64,000 bases of DNA, taken from the NCBI RefSeq assembly GCF_900102035.1, contig NZ_LT629689.1, positions 4,510,001-4,574,000 on the forward strand, in the 5' to 3' direction. The notes below the pieces were generated by a model that was not told where the DNA came from, did not search any database, and saw nothing but the letters and a program-made list of their open reading frames with translations. This stretch comes from Pseudomonas extremaustralis. Lineage in GTDB: Bacteria > Pseudomonadota > Gammaproteobacteria > Pseudomonadales > Pseudomonadaceae. The position numbers and the translations under genes are program-made. Every line of letters begins with the position of its first letter. Position 1 is the first letter of the stretch. Positions 46,060-62,893 of this stretch are shown here, in pieces.

Positions 46060-47376
46060 ATGACCGACGACAATAGCTCTTCACCCGCCTCTCCAGAAGA
46101 TCCTCACCTTGCAGATCCGACAATGAGCCTATTCGTTAAAGAAGATGCACCACCCTCCTCGCCCCTACGGGAGCTGGAGGCGTTGATGCTCAGCCGAGTT
46201 GAGTCTGTTGGCCTGGACTCTGTCGCCCAGGCGATAGGCGGTAGTGCCGGCGAGCTTTTCAAAAGTTACAAGCAAGACGTGAAAAAGTGGGCAGAGCTTT
46301 TGGGATTGCTTGGGTTACAGGTTAGCCATGAACCGAGCGGTAGCTCGCCGGCGCAGCCGTACGCTCCCCTCTCCGCGCCTGCAATACTGCAGCTCGGCGA
46401 ACCGGAAGAGGTCTATCGCCATTTGGATTACCTTACGGCAGACCAAGCTCTCGACTGGATGGAGCGCATATCCGGTCATCACGTTGAGTGGCACACGCTC
46501 TGGGCGATGGTCGGCTTTGAAATGTGCGATGCCTTCATGGACTGCCGAGCTGTTCGGGGGCTCACATACGCCGCAGAGGGAGAGCATGAGCATCGAAAAG
46601 TCTTTGGGCTGGGCATCTGTCAGGTAATGAATGCGGTGAAGGGGGAAGGTGATCCGCTGCACCTATTGGGGGCAGCAATTCATGTCGATCGGTACGGTCT
46701 CGAAGAGATCGTGCCAAAACGCCGCTGGTGGATTAACGACCTGGAGGACTATGAAGTTCTGTTCCGGCCATCTGACATCGAACGGATGGGCCAGATTGTT
46801 GATGAACGCGGTGGCTGGTCTAGCGTTGAGCCCCACCAGCCTGATGAGCAGCCCCCCGAATACAACGGCTCGGAGCTGGCTCAGCGCCTTGGAAAGCTGC
46901 AGATCTCGATCAATCATTTCAACGATCGGTTGAGCTACTGCATCAAGTTTGAAGATGGTCGCTTATTGGCGGAGCTAGGCTCAGATTTGACCCCCTTGAG
47001 GGCAGGCCTTGAAAGCTCGCAGCAAGCCGGCACTACTTCTCATGCACATGAATCGGAAATATTGGATCTGAAGGAGCTTATCGCTGCGCAAAGCGAACAA
47101 CTGCTATCACTTCAGCAGTCGAACAACCCGGAGGCAGAGGGTGCTTCTTCAGGTATTAGCTTCCCATATTCCACAAGAGGGCTTGAGGCTCTGCGATCTG
47201 TAGCCATGGAAAAATGGGCGGGCTACACGCCAGACAAGCGCCAGCCGACTCAGAAGGAGATCGGGTATGCCATATGCGAAGCATTAGGCGTCGACTATCA
47301 GAAGACCAACGAGCCACCGCGCAAAGCGAAGGAACTAGCAACCATCATCAGACCTGATGACCTGCCAGACCTATGA
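46060..47376 (+). CDS. Unknown element protein with possible CII-like DNA-binding N-terminus
   Basis: 438 residues from ATG 46060, preceded by GGGAG. Residues about 40-85 (ELEALMLSRVESVGLDSVAQAIGGSAGELF...VKKWAELLGLLGLQV) resemble phage CII-type helix-turn-helix proteins in layout; this is a weak, by-eye match. The middle (WWINDLEDYEVLF...) matches nothing I know. The C-terminus (EALRSVAMEKWAGY, then PTQKEIGYAICEALGV, ending RPDDLPDL) looks like a separate helical module. It sits between int and AlpA, next to the direct repeats at 47396, so a regulatory role is plausible. Confidence 0.75.
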   Translation: MTDDNSSSPASPEDPHLADPTMSLFVKEDAPPSSPLRELEALMLSRVESVGLDSVAQAIGGSAGELFKSYKQDVKKWAELLGLLGLQVSHEPSGSSPAQPYAPLSAPAILQLGEPEEVYRHLDYLTADQALDWMERISGHHVEWHTLWAMVGFEMCDAFMDCRAVRGLTYAAEGEHEHRKVFGLGICQVMNAVKGEGDPLHLLGAAIHVDRYGLEEIVPKRRWWINDLEDYEVLFRPSDIERMGQIVDERGGWSSVEPHQPDEQPPEYNGSELAQRLGKLQISINHFNDRLSYCIKFEDGRLLAELGSDLTPLRAGLESSQQAGTTSHAHESEILDLKELIAAQSEQLLSLQQSNNPEAEGASSGISFPYSTRGLEALRSVAMEKWAGYTPDKRQPTQKEIGYAICEALGVDYQKTNEPPRKAKELATIIRPDDLPDL

Positions 47377-47395
47377 ATTCGCCTTTAGACACAGC

Positions 47396-47433
47396 GACAT
47401 GACTACATGTCAGGGTGACATGACGCCATGACA
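47396..47433. promoter_or_regulatory. TGACATG operator-like repeats upstream of alpA
   Basis: GACATGACTACATGTC (6-base arms, 4-base spacer, 47396-47411) is followed by TGACATGACGCCATGACA (47416-47433), giving four CATG-centred half-sites in 38 bases. It lies about 80 bases upstream of the alpA ribosome site (CTAGGAGG), where a repressor of the long rightward operon would act. Confidence 0.6.
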
Positions 47434-47509
47434 CCCCTTCCTGACATACCGCCATCCTCTCCAGCATTGCCATCGTCGATTACCCAAACCGCCCTAGGAG
47501 GCGCAGACG

Positions 47510-47731
47510 ATGGCAAGCGCAACCAATCAAGCCCCGCCCCGCAAGTTCATCAAAATCATCCACGTCAAAGAGCTGTCCAGTCTTTCGACGTCTGAGGTCT
47601 ATCGGCGAATTGCCGCCGGCACATTCCCGAAGCAAGTCACCCTGGGCCCTAAGTGCGTTGTCTGGATCGAGGCAGAGGTTTTGGCCTGGCTGGATGCCCG
47701 CATTGCCGAGAGTCGCGGTGAAGCGGCATGA
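47510..47731 (+). CDS. AlpA-family transcriptional regulator
   Basis: 73 residues of the AlpA/MerR-like winged-helix type: KIIHVKELSSLSTSEVYRRIAAGTFPKQVTLGPKCVVWIEAEVLAWLDARI. In P4-like elements such proteins activate integrase or late-type promoters and assist excision. AGGAGG precedes the ATG. It starts a nearly gap-free rightward gene run to 62893, and its stop overlaps the next ORF by ATGA. Confidence 0.92.
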   Translation: MASATNQAPPRKFIKIIHVKELSSLSTSEVYRRIAAGTFPKQVTLGPKCVVWIEAEVLAWLDARIAESRGEAA

Positions 47732-48186
47732 ATCGTTATCAGCGGTTCCCAACGCTTGCCAAGCCTTCTCAGGACGACTACAGTTCGCCTGTCACTGCAA
47801 ATTCAGTGGCCGGGTGTAGGAACCCGAGTAAGCAAAAGGCGCCCAGCGCCCAGAACTCTATCTCAGGCGTTTTTTTATGCCTGAAATATCGTTTTATGGC
47901 GGCTGTGTGTGGGAGGGCTTCGGCCCTGCCGGGTTCCTTTTGCCCCGGTATTCCTACCCTGCACACAGCTGCCACCCAATCCCGTAGGAAGGATCGTGGC
48001 AGCTCCTCAGCAGAAGGAGCTCCACCTATGCACGCCCTCACTCCGTCCAAAATTCGCGCCCTTGTTCATCGTCACCTGGCCTTGAGCGCTCTCCGCGCAA
48101 ACTCGTCCCTTGCAGTCCGCTTGAACCGCTACAACGCCCACATGGCAGCCGCTCGCACCCTGGATAATCTCGGAGGTGCGCAATGA
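47728..48186 (+). CDS. Ash-family-like ORF over a structured leader
   Basis: Open for 152 codons from an ATG that overlaps the AlpA stop. The middle reads MAAVCGRASALPGSFCPGIPTLHTAATQ, which follows the pattern of phage P4 Ash-type proteins (AG/R.S..P.SF..GI.T....AT). The frame crosses the RNA structure at 47898-47973. A second start at 48028, with AGAAGGAG upstream, would give only the last 52 residues (MHALTPSKIRALVHRHLALS...). Which start is used is open; I trust the C-terminal part most. No function is known for Ash. Confidence 0.5.
   Translation: MNRYQRFPTLAKPSQDDYSSPVTANSVAGCRNPSKQKAPSAQNSISGVFLCLKYRFMAAVCGRASALPGSFCPGIPTLHTAATQSRRKDRGSSSAEGAPPMHALTPSKIRALVHRHLALSALRANSSLAVRLNRYNAHMAAARTLDNLGGAQ
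47898..47973 (+). ncRNA. Candidate structured RNA: closed multibranch fold
   Basis: GGCGGCTGTGTG (47898-47909) pairs with CACACAGCTGCC (47962-47973) over 12 base pairs with one G-U. Inside lie two perfect hairpins: AGGGC-TTCG-GCCCT (47914-47927, a stable UUCG-type tetraloop) and CCGGG...CCCGG (47929-47948). The element is directly downstream of alpA and ahead of the small genes. P4 uses a processed leader RNA (CI) for immunity; a similar role here is a hypothesis. Confidence 0.55.
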
Positions 48187-49097: not shown

Positions 49098-49100
49098 CCC

Positions 49101-49406: not shown

Positions 49407-49615
49407 TCCCGTTCGATCCGACAATGAGCGTGTCAGCCAAAGAGCGCCCACATATCGACGCTCGTAGCCTGAGCATGATCAACGTTGGCCTAGATCATCT
49501 GATCAAGCTGCGTGATCGCGAGCAGGATCCTTTGGGCAAGCATTGCTTGGACGGCATGGTTGAATTGCTGACAGCAGTGGTTGAGCGGCACAACTCGCCA
49601 TTGGGTGCCGCATGA
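49397..49615 (+). CDS. Hypothetical element protein
   Basis: 72 residues, MSVIPFDPTMSVSAKERPHI..., with an amphipathic helix DHLIKLRDREQDPLGKHCLDGMVELLTAVVERH. No family recognised. ATGA overlap with the primase gene suggests it belongs to the replication module. Confidence 0.68.
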   Translation: MSVIPFDPTMSVSAKERPHIDARSLSMINVGLDHLIKLRDREQDPLGKHCLDGMVELLTAVVERHNSPLGAA

Positions 49616-50493
49616 CTGACGCAATCATCCTTTTCCGTGACGCACTCCAAGCTTCCTATGGCCAGCTTGACTGGCTTCCCGTGCCAGACGGGGCCATTCA
49701 TCGTTTCCGAGTTCCAGAGGACAAGCCCGGCACTCTCAATGGCTGGTATGTCCTGTACTTGGACGGAATCGCTTCCGGTGCATTCGGCAGCTGGAAATCC
49801 GGCAGTGCCAGCACCTGGTGCAGTCGTGAGCCTGTGGACGCCCGCGAGGCCGCACAGATCCGCGAGCGGGTTGACCAGGCACGACACCAGCGCAAAGCAG
49901 AGCAACTCCAGCGCCAGCAGAAGGCATCGGAACTTGCCGACCGCTGGTGGCGAAATGCGCGGCGCGCTAACCCAGATCATCCATACCTGGTCGCCAAGTC
50001 AGTGCGCCCTCATGGCCTGCGCCAGCGAGGTTCTGACCTGCTCATCCCTCTGTACTTGGATGGTCGCCTGATCAACCTGCAAAGGATCGCCCCTGACGGA
50101 GCCAAGCGCTTCCTACCTGGGGGCCGCGTGAAGGGCACCTATTCGCCGCTGGGCATCATCGAGCCAGGCTCAGTTCTCTGCATCTGCGAGGGATGGGCTA
50201 CGGCGGCCAGTCTCCACCAGCACGGTGGCTACGTCGTCGCCGCAGCCATGAACGCGGGGAACTTGATCCCGGCCGCCATGGGGCTGCGCGCCCGTTACCC
50301 AGGCCAGCCAATCGTTATAGCCGGCGATGACGACCGACTCACAGACGGCAACCCAGGTCGCTCAGCAGCAAATGCGGCGGCGGCGGCCGTAGGCGGCCAA
50401 GTGGCATTCCCAGAGTGGCCGGAAGGTGCACCCGATGACCTCACAGACTTCAACGACCTCGCCAACTGGAAGCTCACAAATGGCCAAGCCTGA
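49612..50493 (+). CDS. Toprim-domain primase, P4 alpha-like N-terminal part
   Basis: 293 residues. The first part lacks a visible zinc finger; a Toprim domain follows with Glu 193 (LCICEGWATAASLHQHGG) and Asp 239-241 (VIAGDDDRLTDGNPGRSAA), the metal-binding pattern of DnaG/alpha-type primases. It should make primers for element replication. In phage P4 primase and helicase are one protein (alpha); here they are split into this gene and the next, which overlap by 14 bases. Confidence 0.9.
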   Translation: MTDAIILFRDALQASYGQLDWLPVPDGAIHRFRVPEDKPGTLNGWYVLYLDGIASGAFGSWKSGSASTWCSREPVDAREAAQIRERVDQARHQRKAEQLQRQQKASELADRWWRNARRANPDHPYLVAKSVRPHGLRQRGSDLLIPLYLDGRLINLQRIAPDGAKRFLPGGRVKGTYSPLGIIEPGSVLCICEGWATAASLHQHGGYVVAAAMNAGNLIPAAMGLRARYPGQPIVIAGDDDRLTDGNPGRSAANAAAAAVGGQVAFPEWPEGAPDDLTDFNDLANWKLTNGQA

Positions 50494-52276
50494 CACCAAC
50501 GTGATCAACCTTCGGCCTGATGCCGCAGTAATTGCGCCTAATCGTCCCTGCTGGGCGGTGTACGACCAATGGGTCACCAACGAGAAAGGCCGCAAGCTCA
50601 AGCCTGGCGTTTACTGGCACGGTTTCAAGCGCGACTCAGACCAGGACGACGCTGATGGCGACAGCGATGACCGGGCAATCACTGATGAGTGGATCTCTAG
50701 CCCCGTCAAAGTCGTAGCTCGCACTACCAACAGCGATGACGGTAGTGAGGGCCGCTTGCTCCGTATGGTCACCGACAACGGGGTGAAGGACTGGATTATT
50801 GCCATGGAGGTGTTCGGCGGCAGCGGTGAGGAAGCCAGGCGAGCTCTGTTTTCTATGGGGGTGATCATTTCCCTCAAGAAGCGCAGCCACTTCATGGAAT
50901 ATCTGCTTGAGCAGCACCCGACCGAAGTTTTCGTCACCACGAGCCGGCCAGGCTGGCATGAGTCGGGGGCGTTTGTCTTGCCTGGGCGAACTATCGGGAG
51001 TGACAAGGTTCGCTACCAAGCCAGCAGCCAAGCGCAAAATCTGTTCAAGACGAAGGGCGACCTGGCCACCTGGCAACTGGAAGTCGCGGCCAAGTGTGCC
51101 GGCAACCCGGTACTGACACTTTCCATCGGCTGCGCGCTTGCTGGGCCACTGCTAAGCCTGGTCGGCGTACTCGGCGGTGGCGTTCACCTCGTAGGTGACA
51201 GCTCAAGCGGTAAGTCATTGGTTCAGTTGGTTGGATCATCAGTATGGGGTGACCCCGGTGTCTTCGCGGCATCGTGGGACATGACCAAGGGTGGTTTGGA
51301 AATTGAGGCGTCATCACGAAACGACACCCTCCTTCCATTGGATGAAATCAAGCGCGCCGATCCCAAGCGCGTTCAAGAAATGGCCTATGCACTGGCAAAC
51401 GGGCAAGGCAAAGGCACGATGACCCGGGAGCGTGAAGGCAGAGCCAGGCTGAATTGGCGCCTGCTTGCACTCTCAAGCGGCGAGCGGTCTCTGTCCGAGC
51501 ACGCTGCGATCTCGGGCAATGCCGCCCACGCCGGTGCCGAGTTGCGCATGGTCGACGTGAACGCGGGCACTCGCACCCACCGCGCCTTTGACGAACTGCA
51601 CGGACTTGAGGGTGCGGACTTCCACCGCCAACTGACCGTTGCTGTCACTCGCAGTCATGGCCACGTCGGGCCGGCGTTCGTTGAACGGCTACTGGCTAAC
51701 GATGATCGTCCAGGGTTACTGGAAGACTTCGCCAAGGTGCGCGCCACATTCGCGGAAGACAATGCACAAGCCGGACGAGTCGCCGACCGCTTTGCGGTCA
51801 TCGCGTTGGCTTGCGAAATGGCAGTCGCCTACGAACTGCTCCCATGGCCTGAAGGTAGCGCCCTGGCGGACTGCCAACTGCTGTACCGCGAATGGCTCAA
51901 CAGAGTTGGCAGTGGCAACGCTGAAGACCGCCAGATCTTGTCCGGCATCCTGGACTTCATTGACCGCCACGGTAGCAGTCGATTCTCCGATGTAGCCGAA
52001 GGTCAGTCAGAGGTGAAGGTTTCCAACCGTGCCGGCTATTGGGAAATGTCCGGCACCAAGCGGCTTTACCTATTCAACAAGTCCGCGTTGATCGAAGCGG
52101 CGCACGGTTATGGACTGAGCCGCGTCGTCAAAGCTCTTGAAGGCGCGGGAGCCCTTGCCAAACGCGACTCCGACAAGAAGCGCCATACCAAGAAATACCG
52201 ACTTCCAGGAGGGGGCACTAGCGGCCTGTACGTAGTCGACTCAGAGGCCATGGATCGCGAGGCACTCGGCCAATGA
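50480..52276 (+). CDS. DUF927-type replicative helicase
   Basis: 598 residues. An N-terminal DUF927 region is followed by an ATPase with Walker A GDSSSGKS (residues 239-246) and Walker B LLPLDEIKRAD, then an Arg-containing region and a C-terminal winged-helix-like part (FNKSALIEAAHGYGLSRVVKALEGAGAL). Predicted to load at and open the element origin. ATG 50480 lies inside the primase gene end. The GTGGGAAC repeat cluster begins 45 bases after its stop. Confidence 0.9.
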   Translation: MAKPDTNVINLRPDAAVIAPNRPCWAVYDQWVTNEKGRKLKPGVYWHGFKRDSDQDDADGDSDDRAITDEWISSPVKVVARTTNSDDGSEGRLLRMVTDNGVKDWIIAMEVFGGSGEEARRALFSMGVIISLKKRSHFMEYLLEQHPTEVFVTTSRPGWHESGAFVLPGRTIGSDKVRYQASSQAQNLFKTKGDLATWQLEVAAKCAGNPVLTLSIGCALAGPLLSLVGVLGGGVHLVGDSSSGKSLVQLVGSSVWGDPGVFAASWDMTKGGLEIEASSRNDTLLPLDEIKRADPKRVQEMAYALANGQGKGTMTREREGRARLNWRLLALSSGERSLSEHAAISGNAAHAGAELRMVDVNAGTRTHRAFDELHGLEGADFHRQLTVAVTRSHGHVGPAFVERLLANDDRPGLLEDFAKVRATFAEDNAQAGRVADRFAVIALACEMAVAYELLPWPEGSALADCQLLYREWLNRVGSGNAEDRQILSGILDFIDRHGSSRFSDVAEGQSEVKVSNRAGYWEMSGTKRLYLFNKSALIEAAHGYGLSRVVKALEGAGALAKRDSDKKRHTKKYRLPGGGTSGLYVVDSEAMDREALGQ

Positions 52277-52629
52277 CCAATCTTCGCCCCCCCATCCAGC
52301 CAAATTCGTGCAGCAGCTCTGTTCCCACCAATTCTCATAGTGGGAACAAGTGTGAACGCCTGGAGCCCTTACTGGCCGGGCTCGTTCCCCCGGTTCCCAC
52401 TGTTCCCACCGTTTTCAGAATCACAGAAACACATTGTGGTGATCGTGCTGAGAAGACTCGATTCGCGCCCCACACTTTCGAGCCACTGCATCGGGCAAAG
52501 GGAAAAAGTGGTGGGAACAGTGGGAACGGTGGGAACAGCCAGAGCGGCCGCGGGCTGCGAGCGTTCCCACTAAAACAAAGAAGTGTGAACAGGTGGGAAC
52601 ACACATCTGTTCTGGAGAACCGGCCATGA
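52273..52629 (+). CDS. Doubtful ORF across the iteron cluster
   Basis: 118 codons whose composition is dictated by the GTGGGAAC repeats (PVPTVPTVF, then GGNSGNGGNSQSG). It has an ATGA overlap with the helicase stop, the only point in favour. No family or domain is visible; I think it is non-coding origin DNA. Confidence 0.25.
   Translation: MTNLRPPIQPNSCSSSVPTNSHSGNKCERLEPLLAGLVPPVPTVPTVFRITETHCGDRAEKTRFAPHTFEPLHRAKGKSGGNSGNGGNSQSGRGLRAFPLKQRSVNRWEHTSVLENRP
52321..52600. other. Candidate replication origin with GTGGGAAC iterons
   Basis: Nine exact GTGGGAAC octamers in 280 bases: forward at 52340, 52511, 52520, 52529, 52593; reverse at 52321, 52393, 52402, 52563. Three near-copies are at 52350 and 52583 (GTGTGAAC) and 52384. 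Neighbours in a group are 9 bases apart. The reverse pair at 52393-52409 and forward triplet at 52511-52536 form an inverted repeat (GGTTCCCACTGTTCCCACC against GGTGGGAACAGTGGGAAC) around 100 bases. P4 alpha protein binds related GGTGAACA-type iterons at its origin, and the primase-helicase genes lie directly upstream. Confidence 0.7.
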
Positions 52630-52949
52630 CAGTCCTACGCGGCATGTTTGAGCGGTTGAGCGCGGTAGCGCCGCCAGAACAACCACAGCCAAATCTCGAA
52701 ATACAGCCCGATGCATACGCAGAGCCAATGGAGCCAAGCCATTCCCATTGGTGCGTGGTTCGAGCCGGGAAAGTGCTCTGCAGCATGATCGGAGAGCCCA
52801 TGACAGAAGCCCAGGCCGTGGAAGAAGTCCGGTACCGCTGGCCAGACGCCGAGGTTATCCGACCGGAGCCAGGCCCCGTTTCACCACTCACGTCCAGCTC
52901 TCGTCCTCAACCACAAGTCCAAGCACAGGAACCACGTCATGGGCATTGA
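52626..52949 (+). CDS. Hypothetical element protein
   Basis: 107 residues, MTVLRGMFERLSAVAPPEQP..., with a Pro/Gln-rich linker and a small domain HWCVVRAGKVLCSMIGEPMTEAQAVEEVRYRWPDAEVI. No family recognised. GGAG precedes ATG 52626. It bridges the origin and the ejection module; its end overlaps the GNAT start by 11 bases, so the junction shows no sign of a deletion scar. Confidence 0.68.
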   Translation: MTVLRGMFERLSAVAPPEQPQPNLEIQPDAYAEPMEPSHSHWCVVRAGKVLCSMIGEPMTEAQAVEEVRYRWPDAEVIRPEPGPVSPLTSSSRPQPQVQAQEPRHGH

Positions 52950-53400
52950 AACGATTATTCGAACCTGCACGGTGGCTGAGCTGGAGCAGGCCGGCGCATT
53001 GCCTAAGTTACTGACTGCCTATGGCGATGAATCGAGCATCCCTGAGTTAGGCAAGGTTGATGCCTGCTTTGCAACGTATCGGGCAATGGAGACGAGCGGC
53101 GCACTCCACATTCTCGGTGCGTTCGGCCCTGACTTGGTCGGGCTTGCCTCACTGCTGGTGTATGGGTTGCCGCACTACGCGGGCCGTCGCATCTGCGCGA
53201 TGGAGTCATTCTTCGTTGAGCCGCATGCACGCAAGGGCGGGGCAGGTATCAAGCTGTTGCGTGCAGCCGAGGCCCGCGCCCTAGCACTGGGCGCATCTGC
53301 CCTGATGATCAGCGCGCCCATTGGCAGCAGGCTGGCGATGGTTTTGCCCCGCTCCGGATACCGCGAAACCAACCAGGTATTCCTGAAGGTGCTCGCATGA
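52939..53400 (+). CDS. GNAT-type acyltransferase of phage origin
   Basis: 153 residues, with FVEPHARKGGAGIKLLRAAEARALALGA, the acetyl-CoA loop of the GNAT fold, and an end SGYRETNQVFLKVL. Genes of this type stand directly before the internal virion proteins in several podovirus genomes; the target is unknown. Overlaps neighbours by 11 and 4 bases. Confidence 0.8.
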   Translation: MGIETIIRTCTVAELEQAGALPKLLTAYGDESSIPELGKVDACFATYRAMETSGALHILGAFGPDLVGLASLLVYGLPHYAGRRICAMESFFVEPHARKGGAGIKLLRAAEARALALGASALMISAPIGSRLAMVLPRSGYRETNQVFLKVLA

Positions 53401-53855
53401 ACAGCATCGCCTCCGCGGCTCCATCACTCCCCGCTATGACAAGTGCCGACGTTGAGAAAGTCCGAGGGTTGGAGTCGCATTTGCTTGGTATGGAGCAAGT
53501 GGCCATCCAGACCCAGCACCACTTTCACGCGGGACTCTACTCCCGAACCATCCGCATTCCCGCCGGCGTAATGATCACTGGCGCCCTGATCAATATCCCC
53601 ACTCTGCTGATTGTCTCGGGCCACGTCACGGTTTTCATCGGTGGAGAAACACTTGAGCTGAAGGGATACCACATCGTCCCGGGACAGGCCGGCCGCAAGC
53701 AGGTGTTTGTAGCGCATGCCGATACCGACCTGACCATGACCTTTGCCACCCAGGCCAAAACGGTTGAAGACGCCGAATCTGAATTTACCAATCAACCCAC
53801 AGCACTCATGTCGCGCCAGCAAAGCAACGACCTGACCATCACCACTGGAGAATAA
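53397..53855 (+). CDS. Cupin-like phage protein
   Basis: 152 residues. The middle has cupin-like alternation: HHFHAGLYSRTIRIPAGVMI, TLLIVSGHVTVFIGGETLEL, then GYHIVPGQAGRKQVFVAHAD. Similar small cupin-like proteins accompany the ejection genes of podoviruses; role unknown. ATGA overlap with the GNAT gene. Confidence 0.7.
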   Translation: MNSIASAAPSLPAMTSADVEKVRGLESHLLGMEQVAIQTQHHFHAGLYSRTIRIPAGVMITGALINIPTLLIVSGHVTVFIGGETLELKGYHIVPGQAGRKQVFVAHADTDLTMTFATQAKTVEDAESEFTNQPTALMSRQQSNDLTITTGE

Positions 53856-53857
53856 CC

Positions 53858-54397
53858 ATGTCTGGATACACCACCGCTGTCGCTTTAGCCACTGCCGTTG
53901 CCGGTACGGCCTATTCGGTCTACTCAACGCAGCAGGCCGGTAAGCAGGCCAGCTTGAACGCTGACGCTCAGTCCGAGCAGGCACAGAACGACGCCAACGC
54001 GGCCGCCAGTGCCTCAATGGTACAGGCCGACCGTATCCGACGGATTGCCCGCAACCAGGCCAGTGAGGCCAACACGGCCCTTGCAGGGTCTGGTGTTGAA
54101 GTGGGTGAAGGCACCGCGGTCAACATCAACGAAGAAATCATCGGCAATGCCGAGGAAGACGCGGTGTTAACCATCTTCAATGGCCAGAACCAAAAGGCCC
54201 GCGGCTCCGTCGATGCCAGCAACTACAAGCTGGCAGGAAGCCAGGCCCGATCCAACGCGAACGCCCAATCCATTGGCACCGTGCTTTCCAGCGGGGCTCG
54301 GATCGCAAGCGGGTGGAAAGCATCCGCTGCAGGTCGGGACATGCAGGGCCAAACGCAAGAACTGAATACCAATCCAGCCTGGGTGAGGAATTCCTGA
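53858..54397 (+). CDS. Internal virion protein, T7 gp14-like
   Basis: 179 residues: an N-terminal hydrophobic segment (TTAVALATAVAGTAYSVYST), then a helical Ala/Asn/Gln-rich body (NADAQSEQAQNDANAAASAS, then IRRIARNQASEANTALAGSGVEVGEGT) as in gp14-type ejection proteins that form the outer-membrane part of the T7 ejection channel. Family assignment rests on size, composition and gene order. Overlaps the next ATG. Confidence 0.75.
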   Translation: MSGYTTAVALATAVAGTAYSVYSTQQAGKQASLNADAQSEQAQNDANAAASASMVQADRIRRIARNQASEANTALAGSGVEVGEGTAVNINEEIIGNAEEDAVLTIFNGQNQKARGSVDASNYKLAGSQARSNANAQSIGTVLSSGARIASGWKASAAGRDMQGQTQELNTNPAWVRNS

Positions 54398-56529
54398 TGG
54401 CACAGATACCACTTGGCCCGGGCGTACGTGTATTGCCAGAGGCGCCCCAAAATCGCGTTATTACACCAGACCCGAACAATCTGAATCGTGGCGGGCAACA
54501 GTTAGCCGGCACAGTTCAGAACGCAGCGCTTTCCTTCCTTGACCAGAAAAAAAAAGAAGACCAGGAGCTTTCTAAGGTCAAGGTAAGCAACGCTCTGTTG
54601 GACTATGAGAGCCAACTAGACACCGGGGTAAACGAGCTCAGCGGCAAGCTGAAAGCCCTGGAAGTGCAACCTGATCAAGGCGAATCAAGCTATCAGCAAT
54701 TCATCAGCAAGCTAGACCCGGTGAAAGTCGAAGGCCTGGATGCATCTGACCAAGAGCATTTGAATCTCGCCGTCCGCAAGATGCAGGCAAACAAGCTTCA
54801 ACAGATCCAAGGATCGGTGCTGGAAGCCCGCACAGGCGTGGCCAAAAGTGAGCTCAGGTCTCGCTTTGATCTGTTGGAGAATGCTGCTGCCAGGCCAGAT
54901 GCAGACCTTGGTCAGATCCTCAATCGAGCGCGGGCGGATGGTGTTCAGACCGTTGGCCGCAGTGCTTATGGCATCGACGGCTGGGATAAAGAGGTGCGCA
55001 CCTTTGAACAGTCGGCCTATTCCGCTAACGCACTGGCGCGTATCCACAGCGCCGGGAACAATCCGGAACAACTGCAGCAAATCCAGCGAGATCTGTCTAA
55101 CTGGGACGATGGCCCATATTCATCGCTTACCCTGAAGAACCGAGAAAGCCTGATCAAAACCCTGAACCCGCTACTGGATCGAAGCATCGGCGTCAGCGTT
55201 GGAGCACAGGCGGTCGAGCAAGCCAAAAGCGGGAGCGGATCGGTGTTTGCGGCAATGCTCCAGGCCGAGAGCGACGGTCGCCAGGTCGACGCATCCGGAG
55301 CGCCACTTACATCCAACCGTGGAGCGGTAGGCATCGCCCAGGTGATGCCAAGCACTGGCCCTGAGGCTGCTCAGGCTGCTGGCTTGCCATGGGACGAAAA
55401 GCGATTCAAAACCGACGCAGACTACAACCGTTCACTTGGAGAGGCGTACTACGGGAAGCTGCGCCAAACGTTCGATGGTTCGGACGCGCTGGCCGTGGCC
55501 GCCTATAACGCGGGCCCTGGAATGGTTAACGATTGGATCAACGGCACCAACACCACGGGCAAGAATGAAAGCAAGCTGAAACTGGGTGACCCCAGGAAGG
55601 GCGAAATCAGCGAAGCCGACTTCATCAAGGGTATCCCCTTCAAAGAAACGAAGGACTATACCCAGAAAGTTCTCAGCAGCGTCCAGCAGGAGGCCGAACC
55701 GACATTCGGCCAAATCGCCAAGGGTATTGATGCTCGCAGCGATCTAACCCCTGATCAGAAACGCATCGCCATCGCTGATGCACGCGACCGATTCAGTTGG
55801 CAGCAAGATCAGCAAAAGCAGGAGCACATTCAGAACCAAGGGCAGGCTTGGGACTTCATGCTCAAGGGCAACAAATGGCAAGACTTGGATCCCGACCTTT
55901 GGGCCAAGCTACCTGCAAAAGACCGCAAACAATTGATGGCCTACAAGCGGAATCAGCAAACCGATCCTGAGGTGTATACCCATGCCAGGGATCTCATCGC
56001 CCAAGGGAACGAAGTCAACCTGCTCGACATGCGTGACAAGCTGAGCAATGAGGACTTCACCCGCCTGACCGACCTGCAGATTAAGCGGCTGACCGGCGGG
56101 CCAGCAGCAACAGCATCGATCTCGACGAGCACAGCTCTGTTCAACGACGCTTTGCGCAACGCAGGCATGCCTTCCAGCCCTAAACCGGGATCAGCGGTAG
56201 CCAAGCAAGTGGCAACGGCACGTCGCTATGTGGATGACCAGATCCGGGGGCTAGAGGCGCAACAGAACAAGAAGGCCACACACGAGCAGGTGCAACAGAT
56301 CGTGGATCACGCCTTCATCGAAGGAACGGTTGAAGGGTCAGGACTGTTCGGTTTCTTCACCAACAAGCAACGCGCGTTTGAGCGGAAGCCTGGGGACAAC
56401 GTTCGGGTCACGGACATCAAGCAGATTCCGGCCGATGAGCACGAGCAGATTACCGCGGCGCTTAAGCGCCATGGCCGCACTGCGAGTGATGCCGAGATCC
56501 TCAACCTGTTCAATGAGGCCAACCAATGA
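54397..56529 (+). CDS. Ejection protein with lytic transglycosylase (SLT) domain
   Basis: 710 residues. The transglycosylase domain lies at about 280-380: catalytic Glu 291 in FAAMLQAESDGRQVD, GAVGIAQVMPST, and ALAVAAYNAGPGMVNDWING. It is flanked by long helical regions. In T7 the SLT activity is in gp16 and lets the ejected channel cross the wall; here it sits in the middle-sized protein. The ATG at 54397 shares a base with the stop before it; an open extension upstream overlaps the gp14-like gene and is not used. Confidence 0.88.
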   Translation: MAQIPLGPGVRVLPEAPQNRVITPDPNNLNRGGQQLAGTVQNAALSFLDQKKKEDQELSKVKVSNALLDYESQLDTGVNELSGKLKALEVQPDQGESSYQQFISKLDPVKVEGLDASDQEHLNLAVRKMQANKLQQIQGSVLEARTGVAKSELRSRFDLLENAAARPDADLGQILNRARADGVQTVGRSAYGIDGWDKEVRTFEQSAYSANALARIHSAGNNPEQLQQIQRDLSNWDDGPYSSLTLKNRESLIKTLNPLLDRSIGVSVGAQAVEQAKSGSGSVFAAMLQAESDGRQVDASGAPLTSNRGAVGIAQVMPSTGPEAAQAAGLPWDEKRFKTDADYNRSLGEAYYGKLRQTFDGSDALAVAAYNAGPGMVNDWINGTNTTGKNESKLKLGDPRKGEISEADFIKGIPFKETKDYTQKVLSSVQQEAEPTFGQIAKGIDARSDLTPDQKRIAIADARDRFSWQQDQQKQEHIQNQGQAWDFMLKGNKWQDLDPDLWAKLPAKDRKQLMAYKRNQQTDPEVYTHARDLIAQGNEVNLLDMRDKLSNEDFTRLTDLQIKRLTGGPAATASISTSTALFNDALRNAGMPSSPKPGSAVAKQVATARRYVDDQIRGLEAQQNKKATHEQVQQIVDHAFIEGTVEGSGLFGFFTNKQRAFERKPGDNVRVTDIKQIPADEHEQITAALKRHGRTASDAEILNLFNEANQ

Positions 56530-59500
56530 GCCAGTACGACAACATCCTCGCCGGCAAAGAAGAACCTCAGGGCATAGAGGCAAACAAGTACGACGTTGCC
56601 ATCCAGCGCCAGCAGAGCAAGCCCAACCCCCGCACGGCTCTGAGCTACGTTGCTGATACCAACCCGGATGAGCAAGCCAGCATTCAACGCCTGGCCGAAC
56701 TGACAGGGGTCGCTCCTGACATGGTTGTTCGCAACCGCAAGCAGGTTGAGCGACAAGCCAAGCTGGCATCCGTGGACTACGACGCCCTGATTGAGCGAGC
56801 GCCGGCCACTAACCAGTTCCTGACTGACCCGGACAACGCCAGCGTGGCCCACGACGATATCGATGGGCTGTCCAACGTCGAAGGTGCCTTTGATAACTTC
56901 GTCAAAGAGTCCGGTCAGCAGCACTCAACAAGTAAGAGCGATGCACTGACCAAGGGTTTTGGTCAACTGGGAATAATCGGTGAGGCCGGCGCCAACATGC
57001 TGGACAGGGCGCTGTCTTCGGTTGGTGGTTTTTTCGTGAACGCACTGGCACCGCAGAGCGCTTTGGATCGCAACAAGGGAGAAGAGCCGAACTATACGGG
57101 CCGCACGGAAAGCAACATCACTAGCACCGCCCAGGGATACCTGGCTCTACCACGCGACCAACGTATTGCTTTCGCAGGACAGATATTCGACAAAGCCCGC
57201 GACGGCGGTGCGGGTGTGGGTGGCGCGGCGAGTGATACCGCCCTGTACGCATTACGCAACCCTGGATTGATCGGCAGCGCACTAACTGAATCGCTACCTA
57301 GCCTTTTGGCAGGCGGGGTTATAGGCGGGATTGCGGCGCAACCGGTGAAGAACTTCGCTGTCAGTCGTCTTGCCAGCACCTTTGCGCAACGTGCTGCTGA
57401 GAAGGCAATCGTAGTGGGAGGGGTAAACCTCGGTACCGCCATCGCCGGCGGTGCAGGAGAGAACCTGGCCGAAGGACTCAAGAAAACCGGTGACTTAGAC
57501 CAGGCATACGCCTACAGCTTCAAGCGCACTGCAGCCGAAGCCGCGATCAACGCATTAGGCGGCATGGTGCCGATTCCGTTTGCCGGCCGCGGCATAGCAG
57601 GAAAGCTGGGCAACGTCGCAGTTGAAGGTGTAGCCCAAGCTGCAGGCGCTGTTGGTGGCACGGTCGCAGGTGCTGCTGCCGTCGGCGAGCAGGCAACTGG
57701 GGGAGAAATGTTCTTGAACGCCTTCCTGGGTTTGGCAACGTCGCCGGTTGATGTCGCTATCGCAAGTGCCAGCTCTGGCAGACGATATTGGCAAATCGAG
57801 AAAGATCTGACTGCCGTCCAACAACTGGGTGACATGGCTCAGAACTCCAAGATGTTCAAACGCTCACCACAGCGAGCGGAAGCACTCGTGGCCAGGCTGA
57901 AAGAGCAGGCCGGCGGCACTGTAGAAAACATCCTGGTACCCGCCGAGCAGTTCCAACGCTACTTCCAGGAGAACAACCTCGATCCTGAGCAGTTCGCCAA
58001 AGCGGCGACAGGCAACCCCGATGCCCTTGGAGAAGCCCTGGCCCTTGGTGCAGACATCTCAATCCCTTTGGAAAAGTGGGCGTCGGTCATTGCCAAGGAC
58101 GGGCACCACCGCGGTCTCGAGCAGGATATGCGCGCAACTCCCGACGCGATGACGCTACGAGAACTTGCTGAGTTCCAGCAACGCGCGCCTGAGGAGCTTG
58201 AGCGCCTTCGTGATCGTGTTGAGCAAGACCATGTCGCCGCATCGGATCGCCGAGTGTTTGAGGATGTTCGCGGTCAGTTGCTTGGCATTGGTCGCGAAGC
58301 ACAGACAGCAGACAGAGAGGCATCACTTTATCAGTCCGCCTTTCGCTCTCTGGGTGAGCGCTCAGGTATCGACCCTTACGACTTGTTCAACCAATATCGG
58401 CTCCGCATCGGCCAGGACATTCCCGAAGTGCTGCGCAAACCTGGCGGATCTGATCAGCTTGACCTGCTGATTGATCGCCTACGCGCCGCCGATGTTCCCG
58501 ACGACGCGAAGATCTATGGCGCATCGCTAATCGACTTCATCCGTGAGCGCGGCGGCATCCGCGACGATGGTGGCGAGCTGGCCGCCCGTGATGCTGATGT
58601 GGGCCGTAGAGGTAACAACCGAATTTCCAGGAAGGGTGGGCGCAGTCTGGACGACATGGCCACTCAAGCTGCTGAAGCCGGATACTTGGGTAATGTGCCA
58701 ACCGCAACGCCGGAAATGCTCTTGGCCTCACTGGACAAAGAACTTCGCGGCCAACGCCAATCAGCGCCCGGCAATCTCAACCAAGAGCTTCTCAATGCAC
58801 GCAGCTCGCTAGATGACCTGCAACGAGCACTTGACCAATCTGGCCTTGATTTGAACGTCTTGGACAACACTGCAGTACGAAAGGCATTACTCGGGAGCGA
58901 TGCCGTCCGCTTCGATCAATCGGAGGACGGGACACGCGGCTTTATCCAGTTCGGCGCCGACCGCAAGTTCGAAATCAAACTGACCGACAAGGCGAACCTT
59001 TCTACCTTCCTGCATGAAACCGGGCATTTTTATCTTGAAGTGATGGGTGATCTCGCATCGCGCACGGACGTTCCGGATCAGGTAAAACAGGACTACCAGA
59101 CAATTCTGGATTGGTTCGGCGTCAATGAGCGCACAGACATCAAAGTCGATCAGCACGAACAGTTTGCGCGCGGCTTTGAAGCTTACTTGCGCGAAGGGAA
59201 GGCCCCCAGCGCAGCATTGCAGTCGGCTTTTTCACGCTTCAAGGCGTGGCTGACCCAGATCTATCGCGATGCCAGTCGGCTCAACGTCCAACTCAATGAC
59301 GACGTGCGTCGGGTGTTTGATCGACTGTTGGCCACCGATGATGAAATTTCTGTTGCTCAAGCCCCCTTCCGCACCTTGTTCAGCGATGCCCAGGCCGCCG
59401 GCATGTCACCGAACGAGTTCGAGGCTTATTACTCAGCCGCTAACAAGGCTGGTCAGGCTGCCGAGGAACGGCTGACAGCCGAGTCGCTACGCGAGCTGAC

Positions 59501-62500
59501 CCGTGAACAGGAAAAGTGGTGGAAGGATGCACGCGAGAAGATGCTGGGTGACGTCACCAAAGAAGTCGACTCACAACCGGTGTACCGCGTCCAAGACTAC
59601 TTGCGCAAAGGGTTGCAGACCGATGGGACGATTGGAGAACCGGTAAAACTGCTGCGCGAGCCGTTGCTGGAACGCTACGGCAAGACGGTCGTAACACGCC
59701 TTCGTGGCATGACTGGCGATGAGGGGATTCATCCCGACCTGGTTGCCGAACAGTTCGGGTACACATCAGGTGATGAACTGGTGCAGGCTCTAGTAGGTGC
59801 CCGCGCACGTAGGGAGCTCATCCAAGCGGAAACAGACGCCAGGATGCGCGCCGAGTACGGTGACATGCTTAACGATGGCTCTTTGGCAGACCGTGCCATT
59901 GAGGCAGTGCACAACGATGATCGTGCCAGGGTTCTCCGCGAAGAGCTGCGCGCTATTGATCGTCTTCGCCGCCAGGTCGACAAGGTGCAGAGGGCTCAGG
60001 ATGCCGACTCTCGGGCTCTGCGCAACGATGCTTACGACGCTATACCGCCTCTGGAAGCTATCCGCTCAGTCGCCAAACAGGTGATCGCAGACAAGGTTGT
60101 ACGAGATATCCAGCCTCACCTGTACCTCAATGCCGAGCGCAAGGCCAACCGGGACGCCTTCAACTTCGCCACGAAAAACCGCTGGCAAGAGGCCGCCGAG
60201 TCCAAGCAACGGGAGTTGCTGAACCATTACTTGTTCCGGGAGGCGACAGCTGCGCGCAAAGAAGAAGACCGGATTTATACCTTCATGCGCCGCTTTGAGA
60301 AGCCAGCAACCCGGGAGCGCATAGGCAAAGCCGGGGCCAACTACCTAGAGCAAATCGAGGGGCTGCTGGATCAGTACGAGTTCCGCAAGGTCAGCGGCCC
60401 ACAGGTTGAACGTCGCCGTAGCCTCGCCCAGTTCGTCAGGGAGCAAGAGGCCGCCGGCAACATCGTCGCGGTACCGCAACACCTGATTGAACAGAGCGCC
60501 CGCGTCAACTATCGGGAACTGACATTCGAGGAGCTTGGCGGCCTACGTGACGCAGTGGCAAACATCGAGCATATGGCCAGGCTGAAAAACAAGCTGCTGA
60601 ACCGCAAGGACAAGCGCGATTACGAACAGGCAAGGACTGATCTCATAGCTGCGTTAGACACGAATGTGCCCGTACGCGCACGACAAGTGGCTGTATCCGA
60701 AAGCAGCGAAACCATCGGTGACAAGGCAGTAGGTCTTCTGCAGGGGCTGGATGCCTCATTGACGCGGATGGAGAACGTGATCAACCGCTTAGACGGCAGG
60801 GACACCAGCGGCCCCTGGCACCAGTTGATCTGGAGCCCACTCGCAGAGGCCCAAGCCAATGAGCGTCAGTTGTTCAATGCCGGCATCCGCACGATAGTTG
60901 AGCGCTTTGCGGACATGAACGCCGAACGCCTGGCAGATCGGTTCCACATCCCCAGCCTTGGAAAATCATTCAACCGCCGCGAGCTAATCATGCACGCGCT
61001 CAACACCGGCAACGAGTCAAACCGCAACAAGTTGTTGAAAGGGAACAAAGTCGACGAAGCATCACTGGCTGACATGCTGGGACGCCTCGACAAACAGGAT
61101 TGGGATCTGGTGCAGTCTGTATGGGACTCGTTCGACGACCTGTGGCCCGATATCGCTGCAATGTACAAACGCCTCTCCGGTGTGGAGCCACCCCGCATTG
61201 AGCCGAAACCAATCACAACCGCCTTCGGTGAATACCGCGGTGGCTACTTCCCAATCATCTATGACCGCAAGCGTGCAGGCGCACCGCCAGCGGCAGTCGG
61301 CGGCGAACTGTTCGGTGAAGGGTTCGAAGGAGCGCTACCGGGTAACGGATTCACCAACCAGCGTAACGAGAGCGTGTCAGGGCCACTACTGCTCGACCTC
61401 AGCGCCATCCCCCAGCGCCTGGCCCAGCATGTCCACGACCTGACCCACCGGGAAGCGTTGCAGGACGCCCACCGCCTTACGCAGGATCCCTACGTCCGGG
61501 CTGTGCTCATCAATAAGCTTGGCCCACGCGGAGCTGATGCATTCCTGCCCTGGTTGAGGGCCATCGCTAATGACCGAAACCCTCCGGAGACTGGCAACTT
61601 CAACCAGTTCCTCGACACGGCACGGACAAACACGTCCATCGTAGGACTAGGGCTTTCGACAACAACCCTACTGGCCCAGGCAGCTGGACTTATACCTGGC
61701 CTGCTGTACGTGAAGCCTCGTGAACTCGCTACGGCCCTGCTTGAAGGCGTGCGGTCGCCGGTTGATACCTACCGGATGATCACCGAGGCTTCTCCTGCGA
61801 TGCGCCTACGCTGGGACATGGAAGACGGCCGACTGCAATCAAACATTAGCGCCCTCATCGGCCGCAATGCGTTCTTCCGCAAGAAAGCCGACTTGGTGCG
61901 GTTCTCGTTCAATCTGCTGGGATACCTCGACCGAGGTATTTCGGGTGCGATTTGGCTAGCGGCTTACCGTGAAGGTGTTGCAGCAGGCAAGGAAAGCACC
62001 GCCGCAGTGTTGGATGGTGACAAGGCTGTACGCCAATCTCAGGGCGGCACCGGAGCCATGGACATCGCGGCAATCCAACGCAAAGACCAGGGCGCCGCAA
62101 TGCGCTTGCTGACGATGTTCTACACACCGTTCAGCGCCTACTACAACCAGAACCGAGACCTGGCCTTTGAGGCACGCCAAGGGACAAGAACTGTCGCCAG
62201 TGCCGCAGCTTCAATGCTGGCATTGGCGTTCTTCCAGGGAGTCATCGGCGATCTGCTGACGGGTAAGGGCCCAGAAGAGGACGAGAACACCGCAGCCTGG
62301 ATGGCGAAAAGCACACTGGGTTTCGGTGTCTCAGGCTTTCCGGTCATTCGGGACACTATCGGTTCCGCATTGAGCGGTCACGCAGGATCGTTGTCACCTG
62401 CATGGCAGGCAATCAATGCTGGCCGCCAACTAACCTCTGCGGTCGCCGGCGTAGCAAGTGGTGACAAAGACCCAGGGCAAGTGGTCAAATCCGCTGTAAC

Positions 62501-62639
62501 GGCAACTGGCTACCTGCTAGGCATCCCGGTCAAACCGCTCACCAGGCAAGGCACTTACCTGTGGGATATAACGGTTGGGGATGAAGAGCCGGAGGACGCT
62601 GCTGCGTTCATGAAAGGACTTCTCACAGGGAAAAAATAG
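56526..62639 (+). CDS. Giant 2037-residue ejection/polyvalent protein with HETGH motif
   Basis: 2037 residues, uninterrupted. An HExxH zinc-protease motif, FLHETGHFYLEVMGDLAS, lies at residues 830-834; long charged helical regions follow. The C-terminus (RLLTMFYTPFSAYYNQNRDL, a hydrophobic helix ASAAASMLALAFFQGVIGDLL, then FGVSGFPVIRDTIGSAL) resembles the LPD38-type end of large polyvalent phage proteins. Two Gly/Ala-rich stretches (about residues 200-450) could insert in a membrane. By position and size it corresponds to the largest internal virion protein of podoviruses. Protease activity is inferred from the motif only. ATGA overlap with the SLT gene. Confidence 0.85.
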   Translation: MSQYDNILAGKEEPQGIEANKYDVAIQRQQSKPNPRTALSYVADTNPDEQASIQRLAELTGVAPDMVVRNRKQVERQAKLASVDYDALIERAPATNQFLTDPDNASVAHDDIDGLSNVEGAFDNFVKESGQQHSTSKSDALTKGFGQLGIIGEAGANMLDRALSSVGGFFVNALAPQSALDRNKGEEPNYTGRTESNITSTAQGYLALPRDQRIAFAGQIFDKARDGGAGVGGAASDTALYALRNPGLIGSALTESLPSLLAGGVIGGIAAQPVKNFAVSRLASTFAQRAAEKAIVVGGVNLGTAIAGGAGENLAEGLKKTGDLDQAYAYSFKRTAAEAAINALGGMVPIPFAGRGIAGKLGNVAVEGVAQAAGAVGGTVAGAAAVGEQATGGEMFLNAFLGLATSPVDVAIASASSGRRYWQIEKDLTAVQQLGDMAQNSKMFKRSPQRAEALVARLKEQAGGTVENILVPAEQFQRYFQENNLDPEQFAKAATGNPDALGEALALGADISIPLEKWASVIAKDGHHRGLEQDMRATPDAMTLRELAEFQQRAPEELERLRDRVEQDHVAASDRRVFEDVRGQLLGIGREAQTADREASLYQSAFRSLGERSGIDPYDLFNQYRLRIGQDIPEVLRKPGGSDQLDLLIDRLRAADVPDDAKIYGASLIDFIRERGGIRDDGGELAARDADVGRRGNNRISRKGGRSLDDMATQAAEAGYLGNVPTATPEMLLASLDKELRGQRQSAPGNLNQELLNARSSLDDLQRALDQSGLDLNVLDNTAVRKALLGSDAVRFDQSEDGTRGFIQFGADRKFEIKLTDKANLSTFLHETGHFYLEVMGDLASRTDVPDQVKQDYQTILDWFGVNERTDIKVDQHEQFARGFEAYLREGKAPSAALQSAFSRFKAWLTQIYRDASRLNVQLNDDVRRVFDRLLATDDEISVAQAPFRTLFSDAQAAGMSPNEFEAYYSAANKAGQAAEERLTAESLRELTREQEKWWKDAREKMLGDVTKEVDSQPVYRVQDYLRKGLQTDGTIGEPVKLLREPLLERYGKTVVTRLRGMTGDEGIHPDLVAEQFGYTSGDELVQALVGARARRELIQAETDARMRAEYGDMLNDGSLADRAIEAVHNDDRARVLREELRAIDRLRRQVDKVQRAQDADSRALRNDAYDAIPPLEAIRSVAKQVIADKVVRDIQPHLYLNAERKANRDAFNFATKNRWQEAAESKQRELLNHYLFREATAARKEEDRIYTFMRRFEKPATRERIGKAGANYLEQIEGLLDQYEFRKVSGPQVERRRSLAQFVREQEAAGNIVAVPQHLIEQSARVNYRELTFEELGGLRDAVANIEHMARLKNKLLNRKDKRDYEQARTDLIAALDTNVPVRARQVAVSESSETIGDKAVGLLQGLDASLTRMENVINRLDGRDTSGPWHQLIWSPLAEAQANERQLFNAGIRTIVERFADMNAERLADRFHIPSLGKSFNRRELIMHALNTGNESNRNKLLKGNKVDEASLADMLGRLDKQDWDLVQSVWDSFDDLWPDIAAMYKRLSGVEPPRIEPKPITTAFGEYRGGYFPIIYDRKRAGAPPAAVGGELFGEGFEGALPGNGFTNQRNESVSGPLLLDLSAIPQRLAQHVHDLTHREALQDAHRLTQDPYVRAVLINKLGPRGADAFLPWLRAIANDRNPPETGNFNQFLDTARTNTSIVGLGLSTTTLLAQAAGLIPGLLYVKPRELATALLEGVRSPVDTYRMITEASPAMRLRWDMEDGRLQSNISALIGRNAFFRKKADLVRFSFNLLGYLDRGISGAIWLAAYREGVAAGKESTAAVLDGDKAVRQSQGGTGAMDIAAIQRKDQGAAMRLLTMFYTPFSAYYNQNRDLAFEARQGTRTVASAAASMLALAFFQGVIGDLLTGKGPEEDENTAAWMAKSTLGFGVSGFPVIRDTIGSALSGHAGSLSPAWQAINAGRQLTSAVAGVASGDKDPGQVVKSAVTATGYLLGIPVKPLTRQGTYLWDITVGDEEPEDAAAFMKGLLTGKK

Positions 62640-62641
62640 CC

Positions 62642-62893
62642 ATGATGCGACTACTCGGTATCGTTTTGAATCTGGCCCTGATCGGGGTGGTGTTATTCCT
62701 AATCAGCGAAGAAGGGATGCCGGGCGGAGGGTGGCAGATCGCTTTGGTTGTGCTGCTAGTGCTCGCCCCCTTGTTCAACCTGGTGCTTTTGCGAAGCCAC
62801 GCTGGTCAATCAACCGGTCAGGGGCTCTTGTCCCTTTACCTGGAGCGAAAGGCTTTGGAAGAGCGCCAGAAGATCGCTGAGTTGAAAAAGTAA
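62642..62893 (+). CDS. Small two-segment membrane protein
   Basis: 83 residues: two hydrophobic segments (MRLLGIVLNLALIGVVLFLI and WQIALVVLLVLAPLFNLVLL) and a charged tail (ERKALEERQKIAELKK). Two bases after the giant gene and last in the run. It has the shape of a holin or small membrane accessory, but no endolysin is beside it, so I leave the function open. Confidence 0.72.
   Translation: MMRLLGIVLNLALIGVVLFLISEEGMPGGGWQIALVVLLVLAPLFNLVLLRSHAGQSTGQGLLSLYLERKALEERQKIAELKK

Follow-up and report, generated by a model that had tools for sequence, protein, structure and literature searches.

The 64,000-nucleotide stretch of Pseudomonas extremaustralis contig NZ_LT629689.1 analysed here (positions 4,510,001 to 4,574,000; the window) contains a genomic island in which replication genes of the phage satellite type are followed by genes similar to those of podovirus DNA ejection proteins. 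It raises the question of what use an ejection machine may be to an element that seems to encode no head, packaging or tail proteins. The most economical reading of the gene content is that the island is a P4-type satellite that may supply its own ejectosome to the particles of a helper podovirus, and we lean, if only slightly, towards this explanation. A first-pass annotation of the window had put forward the same idea; results of our analysis bear out the satellite backbone, while the supply of an ejectosome is what we infer. The integrase, AlpA, primase, helicase, candidate origin and five ejection-type genes listed by that annotation are all present, with the genes open. The genes of the island within the window are on the plus strand unless stated otherwise.

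The island is 25.7 kb long and extends from an 18-bp repeat in the 3' end of a tRNA-Phe gene (44521-44596; core of the left attachment site, attL, at 44573-44590) to an imperfect copy of this repeat at 70256-70273 (L002:10256, beyond the window), so that the range of 46060-62893 initially assigned to it was too small. The repeat is an exact match to the attachment site (att) named in the consulted parts of the description of the satellite phiAH14b (PMC4936722), and the kinship with the 16.8-kb phiAH14b record (KU708005) extends to most of the island backbone. It includes the tyrosine integrase of 401 aa (44806-46011; 89% to that of phiAH14b), the AlpA-type excisionase/regulator recognised by its family match (47510-47731; 59%), the Toprim primase (49612-50493; 86%), and the DUF927 helicase (50426-52276; 82%). 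In the comparison of this helicase with phage records, phiAH14b is the sole close one (about 81-82%), the other four being below 60%. At the DNA level, the left end of the island (44573-45995) is 81% identical to phiAH14b, part of the origin stretch 75%, and the right-end 29 bp 97%. As described there, phiAH14b DNA was obtained from particles of the siphovirus phiAH14a, which is induced along with it. Its packaging is inferred by the authors to be of the headful kind, with permuted concatemers that are probably trimeric. A gpI homologue is encoded by phiAH14b, and the gpI DNA segment is common to this satellite and its helper phiAH14a (PMC4936722).

Immunity and replication elements agree with this kinship. 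Searches with Rfam detected a C4 antisense RNA of the P4/P1 immunity type (47892-47979; 83.2 bits, cut-off 45) and a c4-a1b1 target RNA element (47778-47830; 56.8 bits, cut-off 46.7), both overlapped by an open reading frame (ORF) of 152 aa (47728-48186). This is perhaps the ORF that was at first described as Ash-like; it exists, but its only resemblance is a weak match to a phage repressor, and it lies over the C4 RNA and its target. A C4 RNA was found in five of seven sources (phiAH14b, genomes G270 and G150, and two islands from the IMG/VR database) and in three of four further ones (G090 in locus L095, G019, and G226), the fourth being a cut contig. Among the seven sources, Rfam gave none in L125, and L142 lacks the relevant stretch, the C4 RNA of the same genome being in L095. 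The candidate replication origin, a stretch between the helicase gene and the ejection module (52318-52605, unstranded), contains many GTGGGAAC iterons in both orientations. They are kept in G270 and in a circularly permuted IMG/VR contig, and related repeats are present in phiAH14b and G090. The island thus combines a tRNA-sited tyrosine integrase flanked by direct repeats, AlpA with a C4 RNA, and its own primase and helicase with iterons. The kinship to phiAH14b, the C4 RNA, the same head-less gene order in other hosts, and purifying selection make its assignment as a phiAH14b-like (P4-type) phage satellite well supported.

The module downstream of the candidate origin is preceded by an ORF of 118 codons with no assigned function (52593-52949), whose end overlaps the start of the first module gene at 52939-52949. 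The small ORF and the overlap had both been noticed in the first-pass annotation, which took a later ATG and counted 107 residues. The module begins with a GNAT acetyltransferase gene (52939-53400) and a gene whose annotation is 'short tail fibre' (STF; 53397-53855; phrog_12032) and whose product is cupin-like, as is also indicated by a match to PDB entry 1sfn (E 5e-4). These are followed by the genes of a 179-aa internal virion protein (IVP; 53858-54397; phrog_418), a virion lytic transglycosylase (SLT; ~54397-56529; motifs intact, Pfam E 4e-14), and a giant ejection/polyvalent protein of 2037 aa (56526-62639; phrog_9880). The IVP, SLT, and giant protein genes, arranged in the order known from phages, would constitute a podovirus ejection set, as judged from their sequences. 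Two long helices are predicted for IVP (mean pLDDT of the model 74); comparison of the model with the PDB gave no match at E <0.001, and a tBLASTn search of phage records with the 179-aa sequence gave no match either. The giant protein is 83% identical over its full length to gp16 of Purivirus and contains an LPD22 domain (E 4.8e-21; 75.2 bits, Pfam cut-off 28.6) and a HETGH motif at residue 830 that is kept in all four sequences examined, while a PDB sequence search returned matches only at E >0.6. An 83-aa small hydrophobic protein is encoded next (62642-62893), and its weak homologue (34%) follows the tail spike gene in Purivirus.

The module appears to be derived from two types of phages. 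The nearest phage relatives of its GNAT and STF proteins are encoded by the prophages of genomes G153 and G176 (65-79%), those of Bordetella phage BPP-1 being further off (44% and 57% to Bbp24 and Bbp23, respectively). In SLT, the first ~265 residues are ~37% identical to the G153-type SLT and the remainder 60% identical to the Purivirus SLT, with the switch point at 55162-55167, which indicates that the module is a chimaera with a left part of the first type and a right part of the second. In BPP-1, the GNAT-STF pair is located between the genes of TerL and portal. In G153, G176, and 6 of the 25 IMG/VR loci with STF, the pair directly follows a tail gene, and the IVP and SLT genes come next after STF in G153, G176, and five of these IMG/VR contigs (L169 ends inside STF). 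As the four genes are contiguous in other phages, no internal deletion of head genes is needed to explain the block. Its origin from a BPP-1-type late operon by loss of the STF-IVP interval was considered as well, and it is ruled out by the contiguous GNAT-STF-IVP-SLT genes of the head-bearing G153 and G176 prophages. In the giant-protein tree, in which two distant rows were included, phages are placed on one side with support of 85/98, and the grouping of islands is weak (38/0); plasmid relatives of this protein are distant (<60%). The corresponding protein of BPP-1, Bbp10 (L005:6187-12345), contains LPD22 and a PBECR1 nuclease-like domain, which suggests that the giant ejection protein of the BPP-1 phage type may have enzymatic cargo.

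No terminase, portal, capsid, tail or spike gene was matched when 42 structural proteins of the Purivirus phage UFJF_PfDIW6, BPP-1, and the G153 prophage were compared with the whole island; the only matches of these queries were to genes of the module itself, namely, those of GNAT, STF, SLT, and the giant protein. Neither did a Pfam and PHROG search of most island ORFs reveal terminase, portal, capsid or tail-tube genes, although small ORFs with no family match could encode unrelated kinds. Within the scope of these podovirus-type queries and of the Pfam and PHROG search, the island has none of the capsid, portal, protease, and terminase genes that define capsid-forming phage-inducible chromosomal islands (cf-PICIs), and none of the terL, portal, major capsid, tail, and spike genes that a podovirus prophage of Purivirus or Rauchvirus type would have. 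The first-pass annotation had proposed two places where head genes could overturn its description of the element. In the first, from position 64000 to the right repeat, none was recognised, and the second, the interval between the helicase and GNAT genes, contains nothing beyond the origin and a single small ORF in all five islands with the helicase in view (the present one, those of G270 and G090, and two IMG/VR contigs).

The head-less arrangement, the recurrence of which had been proposed as a sign of a satellite, was indeed found elsewhere. The G270 island belongs to a second species, is inserted at tRNA-Leu between 17-bp repeats 25.4 kb apart, and shares the gene order at 45-89% protein identity, which is more than chance would explain. 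Three IMG/VR contigs have the same order as well, one of which (L026) begins just ahead of the 118-codon ORF, so that the helicase is out of view. Altogether, the giant gene is present in 5 of 298 genus genomes (the present island, the G270 island, head-bearing prophages of G235 and G237, and a fragment in G190), and STF in 5 of 398 (the present, G270, and G090 islands, and prophages of G153 and G176). In IMG/VR, 12 giant-gene loci are distributed over 11 contigs, three of which are island contigs and eight represent a phage structural context; the 25 STF loci comprise the same three islands, six loci of G153 type, and 16 of BPP-1 type. A scan of named genomes gave five further giant-gene loci: prophages in P. 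paralactis and P. lactis, prophage fragments in strain WS 5079 and P. lactucae, and a remnant in Pseudomonas sp. CHM02. In the fragment of P. lactucae MAFF 301380 (L015, 5779-12684), an island-like integrase, AlpA, and C4-region ORF adjoin a spike gene and a piece of Purivirus-type gp16 whose matches are in two reading frames. The relative in IMG/VR 3300047470_000347 (L035-L037; 24,454 bp) is circularly permuted: its giant gene is split over the contig ends, which are separated by ~22 bp when placed on the window, while its att junction has no adjacent tRNA. It could represent an excised circle, a packaged concatemer, a tandem copy or an assembly error.

Results of pairwise comparisons indicate that the module proteins are under purifying selection. 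The ratio of non-synonymous to synonymous substitution rates (dN/dS) of the giant gene calculated by the NG86 method is 0.047 against G270 (dS 1.29), 0.046 against L026, and 0.077 against the permuted contig (residues 490-2037), and in ten 200-codon bins of the comparison with G270 it stays between 0.017 and 0.102 throughout. The NG86 values for the other module genes are 0.057-0.072 (SLT), 0.070-0.124 (IVP), 0.111-0.194 (STF), and 0.125-0.164 (GNAT, not computable against G270). The YN00 method, which gave values for part of the pairs only, yielded 0.062-0.099 for the giant gene. An intact 2037-codon gene with dN/dS of ~0.05 makes a decaying prophage unlikely, in agreement with the early argument against recent decay that was based on the open 6.1-kb frame.

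The region downstream of the helicase gene turned out to be variable among related elements. A helicase search of 398 genus genomes (E 1e-60) gave 52 listed places in 47 genomes, and 42 places from 41 genomes (the present window, G270, and 40 others) were scored for genes located in the 13 kb that follow the helicase. Of the 42 loci, 21 encode a gpI-type tail assembly protein (phrog_32, E 2e-58) in this slot, and four a tape-measure protein (TMP_2, E 6e-74; phrog_339, E 3e-197), one of them together with gpI. Two loci (L104 and L109) encode a DNA ejection protein (phrog_26400, E 1.5e-33), which we take to be of P22 type and the N-terminal part of which in L104 also matches the lytic tail protein family phrog_2013 (E 9e-40). 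The full BPP-1-type ejection block occupies the slot in two loci, GNAT-STF-IVP only in one, and a P2-type capsid or scaffold gene in three, all with a distant helicase (55-56%). Apart from the present island and that of G270, 30 of 40 loci thus encode virion parts, if the partial block of G090 and the three P2-type head genes are counted. The family search covered 80 of the 151 sibling slot ORFs (left aside were opposite-strand ORFs, all those of L101, L121, and L127, three L095 module ORFs, and some same-strand ORFs), with the first 25 of 83 PHROG and 25 of 40 Pfam families considered. Pyocin/colicin DNase, Fic, BstA, and HEPN families, which are satellite-type cargo, are also represented among these ORFs.

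In a tree of helicases with 57 rows, taken from genomes, IMG/VR, and phiAH14b (four identical rows and a short one were dropped), the slot content requires 18 changes, as compared with the least possible number of 5 and the mean of 29.9 for shuffled content, which indicates inheritance with frequent exchange. The full-module islands whose helicase is in view, four in number, make up a single clade (100/99), G090 is placed among gpI-bearing rows with a nearly identical helicase, and L104 and L109 lie apart. These results point to a family of satellites with an exchangeable slot for virion or entry modules, filled in the present island by what seems to be a podovirus ejectosome. That widespread Pseudomonas satellites use this slot for a DNA-delivery part matched to their helper, and form chimaeric particles with satellite-coded entry and with the capsid and receptor binding of the helper, is a tentative generalisation that we would rather doubt than assume. 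In several relatives with more distant helicases (53-59%; L124-L126, L057, and PP003922 in L132), P2-type genes for major capsid or scaffold/protease proteins are present, and the 10-kb vB_Pae_U10, with an annotated GpN, is among the distant-helicase relatives with P2-type genes; these are perhaps capsid-redirecting satellites.

If the island supplies an ejectosome, its life cycle may be pictured as follows. Replication of the satellite would accompany the growth of a helper podovirus in the same cell, the helper being a relative of Purivirus or of the G153/G176 prophages. The terminase of the helper would package satellite DNA, which would be housed with the use of the helper capsid, portal, tail, and spike. 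The satellite IVP, SLT, and 2037-aa protein would be built into the internal core of these particles, so that the DNA-entry machine, including any action of the giant protein on arrival, would be satellite-coded and receptor binding would stay with the helper.

Several observations weigh against this explanation or limit its reach. No helper was found for the island, and the Purivirus portal is absent from the host genome (G000), G270, and G090, with the query being matched in the control genomes G235 and G237 and weakly in G190 (29%). The G153-type TerL query matched G153 and G176 but none of G000, G270, G235, and G237; the Purivirus TerL query was uninformative because it had no match in any of six genomes, controls included. 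Of the module, the G090 island (L095/L142) retains GNAT-STF-IVP only, SLT and the giant gene being missing, which means that the set can be incomplete, and in CHM02 (L014) the left part of the island is gone. In ten of the 42 slot loci, no virion part was recognised, a score that can also reflect a contig end, as some stretches were shorter than 13 kb. The dN/dS values are rough because dS is near saturation, those from YN00 are higher for IVP (0.18-0.26) and GNAT (0.15-0.27) in the part of the pairs that gave values, and low dN/dS would be equally expected of an interfering or post-entry protein. The particles of the phiAH14a/b strain are described as tail-less (PMC4936722), an observation no less compatible with interference than with help. 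The sequence would look the same under interference with the helper and under a post-entry role.

Among the rival explanations, interference is the strongest. According to it, the satellite ejection, gpI or tape-measure proteins would mis-assemble or compete in particles of the helper or of competing phages and make them non-infectious. It owes this rank to the tail-less particles of the phiAH14a/b strain and to reports of tail-assembly interference by satellites: for genes of PICIs, prophages, and P4-like satellites (Tai), it has been described (PMC11364771), and phiAH14b, the strain of which released tail-less heads, has the gpI homologue (PMC4936722, in part). The island RelA/SpoT-domain gene described below, encoding a candidate defence protein, is consistent with it too. 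However, the giant protein is full-length and strongly constrained, and poisoned ejection would presumably hurt the satellite's own particles as well. Supply is favoured over interference because of this self-cost and because the three ejection parts occur jointly, with the SLT motifs intact; we consider interference unlikely.

Polyvalent proteins enter the cell together with DNA. Another explanation may thus be a role after entry, in which the LPD22 giant protein would be injected with satellite DNA to protect or establish it, with the remaining module genes serving to load this protein. The LPD22 domain and the conserved HETGH motif are in line with such a role, but SLT, IVP, GNAT, and the cupin-like protein would make a costly loading kit, and sibling-slot proteins that were scanned match tail and ejection families in Pfam and PHROG, with no polyvalent domain among the matches listed. 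We find this explanation distinctly improbable.

The second idea of the first-pass annotation, an old deletion prophage, is not supported. A podovirus prophage remnant from which head and packaging genes were deleted could account for the proximity of GNAT-STF to TerL and portal in BPP-1 and for the truncated copy in CHM02. It is at odds with the head-less order at two different tRNAs, the open frames, dN/dS of ~0.05 for the giant gene at dS >1, the satellite backbone with C4 RNA, and the block being naturally contiguous in other phages, and is very improbable. Least probable of all is retention of the block at the DNA level, whether to signal packaging or to allow homologous recombination with helpers, since the proteins are kept with synonymous sites near saturation, even if a gpI DNA segment common to satellite and helper is on record in the consulted parts of the phiAH14a/b report (PMC4936722).

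The remaining features of the island concern its flanks and cargo. Directly after the integrase gene, a 453-aa protein with no assigned function is encoded (46015-47376; 57-59% in G270). It is fast-evolving, with only a weak CII-like match, and is 51% identical in the permuted contig, as compared with 92-97% for the integrase, AlpA, primase, and helicase. Five small backbone ORFs lie between 48183 and 49615. Right of the module, two AlpA-like genes on the minus strand (63350-63628 and 63103-63372) precede the gene of a MobV (Mob_Pre) relaxase (63888-64838, E 5e-27), of which the window holds the start up to 64000. Homologues of MobV are located right of the module also in G270, the three IMG/VR islands, and CHM02, which suggests that the satellite lineage may also be conjugatively mobilised. 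Besides MobV, the region from 64000 to the right repeat contains genes of RelA/SpoT-domain and NA37 proteins, one DNA-binding-like and one xis-like ORF, and further small ORFs. The RelA/SpoT-domain gene, a PADLOC candidate (PDC-S33, E 9e-18), is located beside the NA37 nucleoid-protein-like gene in 64859-66900 (L002:4859-6900), and the two are possibly a defence pair. The 70-aa xis/AlpA-like ORF (67737-67949, minus strand; L002:7737-7949) represents the sole DNA similarity outside the module to 12 phage loci: it is ~86% identical in DNA to an ORF beside the UFJF_PfDIW6 integrase gene (L004:25843-26049) and 82% to L030, and is a possible regulatory link to a helper. A tape-measure gene is present elsewhere in the host genome (G000:C1:404274). 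In CHM02, the final quarter of the giant gene comes almost immediately after tRNA-Phe and att, owing to either a ~16-kb deletion or a contig misjoin.

The comparison with known systems places the island beside phiAH14b, with which it shares the 18-bp att, the integrase, AlpA, C4 RNA, primase, helicase, and iteron origin, the lack of annotated head and packaging genes, and a virion-related gene after the helicase. phiAH14b differs in that it is shorter, has a gpI-type tail assembly protein and a lipoprotein instead of the five-gene ejection block, and has no MobV annotated or matched. Enterobacterial P4 likewise has an integrase, an AlpA-type regulator, C4-type RNA immunity, primase/helicase functions, and an iteron origin, as is generally known, but in the island primase and helicase are separate genes. 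Some homologies of P4 with phiAH14b are named in the consulted parts of the 2016 description of the latter and its gpI-type gene (PMC4936722).

Among phages, UFJF_PfDIW6 (NC_070881) shares the 2037-aa protein over its length and the C-terminal two thirds of SLT (60%); it is a full podovirus with terminase, portal, capsid, tail, and spike, has no GNAT or STF match, and gives no significant BLAST match to IVP. BPP-1 (Rauchvirus, NC_005357), also a full phage, shares SLT (32%) and the C-terminal half of the giant protein (34%) in addition to GNAT and STF, the latter pair being apart from IVP, SLT, and the giant protein in its genome. The G153/G176 prophages and similar IMG/VR contigs have contiguous GNAT-STF-IVP-SLT genes, with 60-79% for the first three products and similarity of SLT in its first third only (36-38%), but they encode portal, tail, TerL, and spike, and genes of 637-638 and 822-846 aa replace that of the 2037-aa protein. 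Satellites with virion genes are represented also by cf-PICIs; these carry capsid, portal, and terminase and borrow tails, the reverse of the island, according to the consulted part of their description (PMC10690885).

In the open-access literature, no satellite with a podovirus ejection set and no slot pattern was found among the matches listed, most subscription papers being outside the scope of the search. The gpI-type gene of phiAH14b gains a family context from our results, because different virion parts fill the slot on near-identical backbones. Known satellites either steal or redirect capsids, as do P4 and the Staphylococcus aureus pathogenicity islands (SaPIs), or carry capsids and steal tails, as do cf-PICIs. 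A satellite with an injection machine only would, if our explanation is true, represent a further division of labour, with receptor binding split from DNA entry in one particle, and with the island one could ask which component of a virion determines whether DNA enters the cell.

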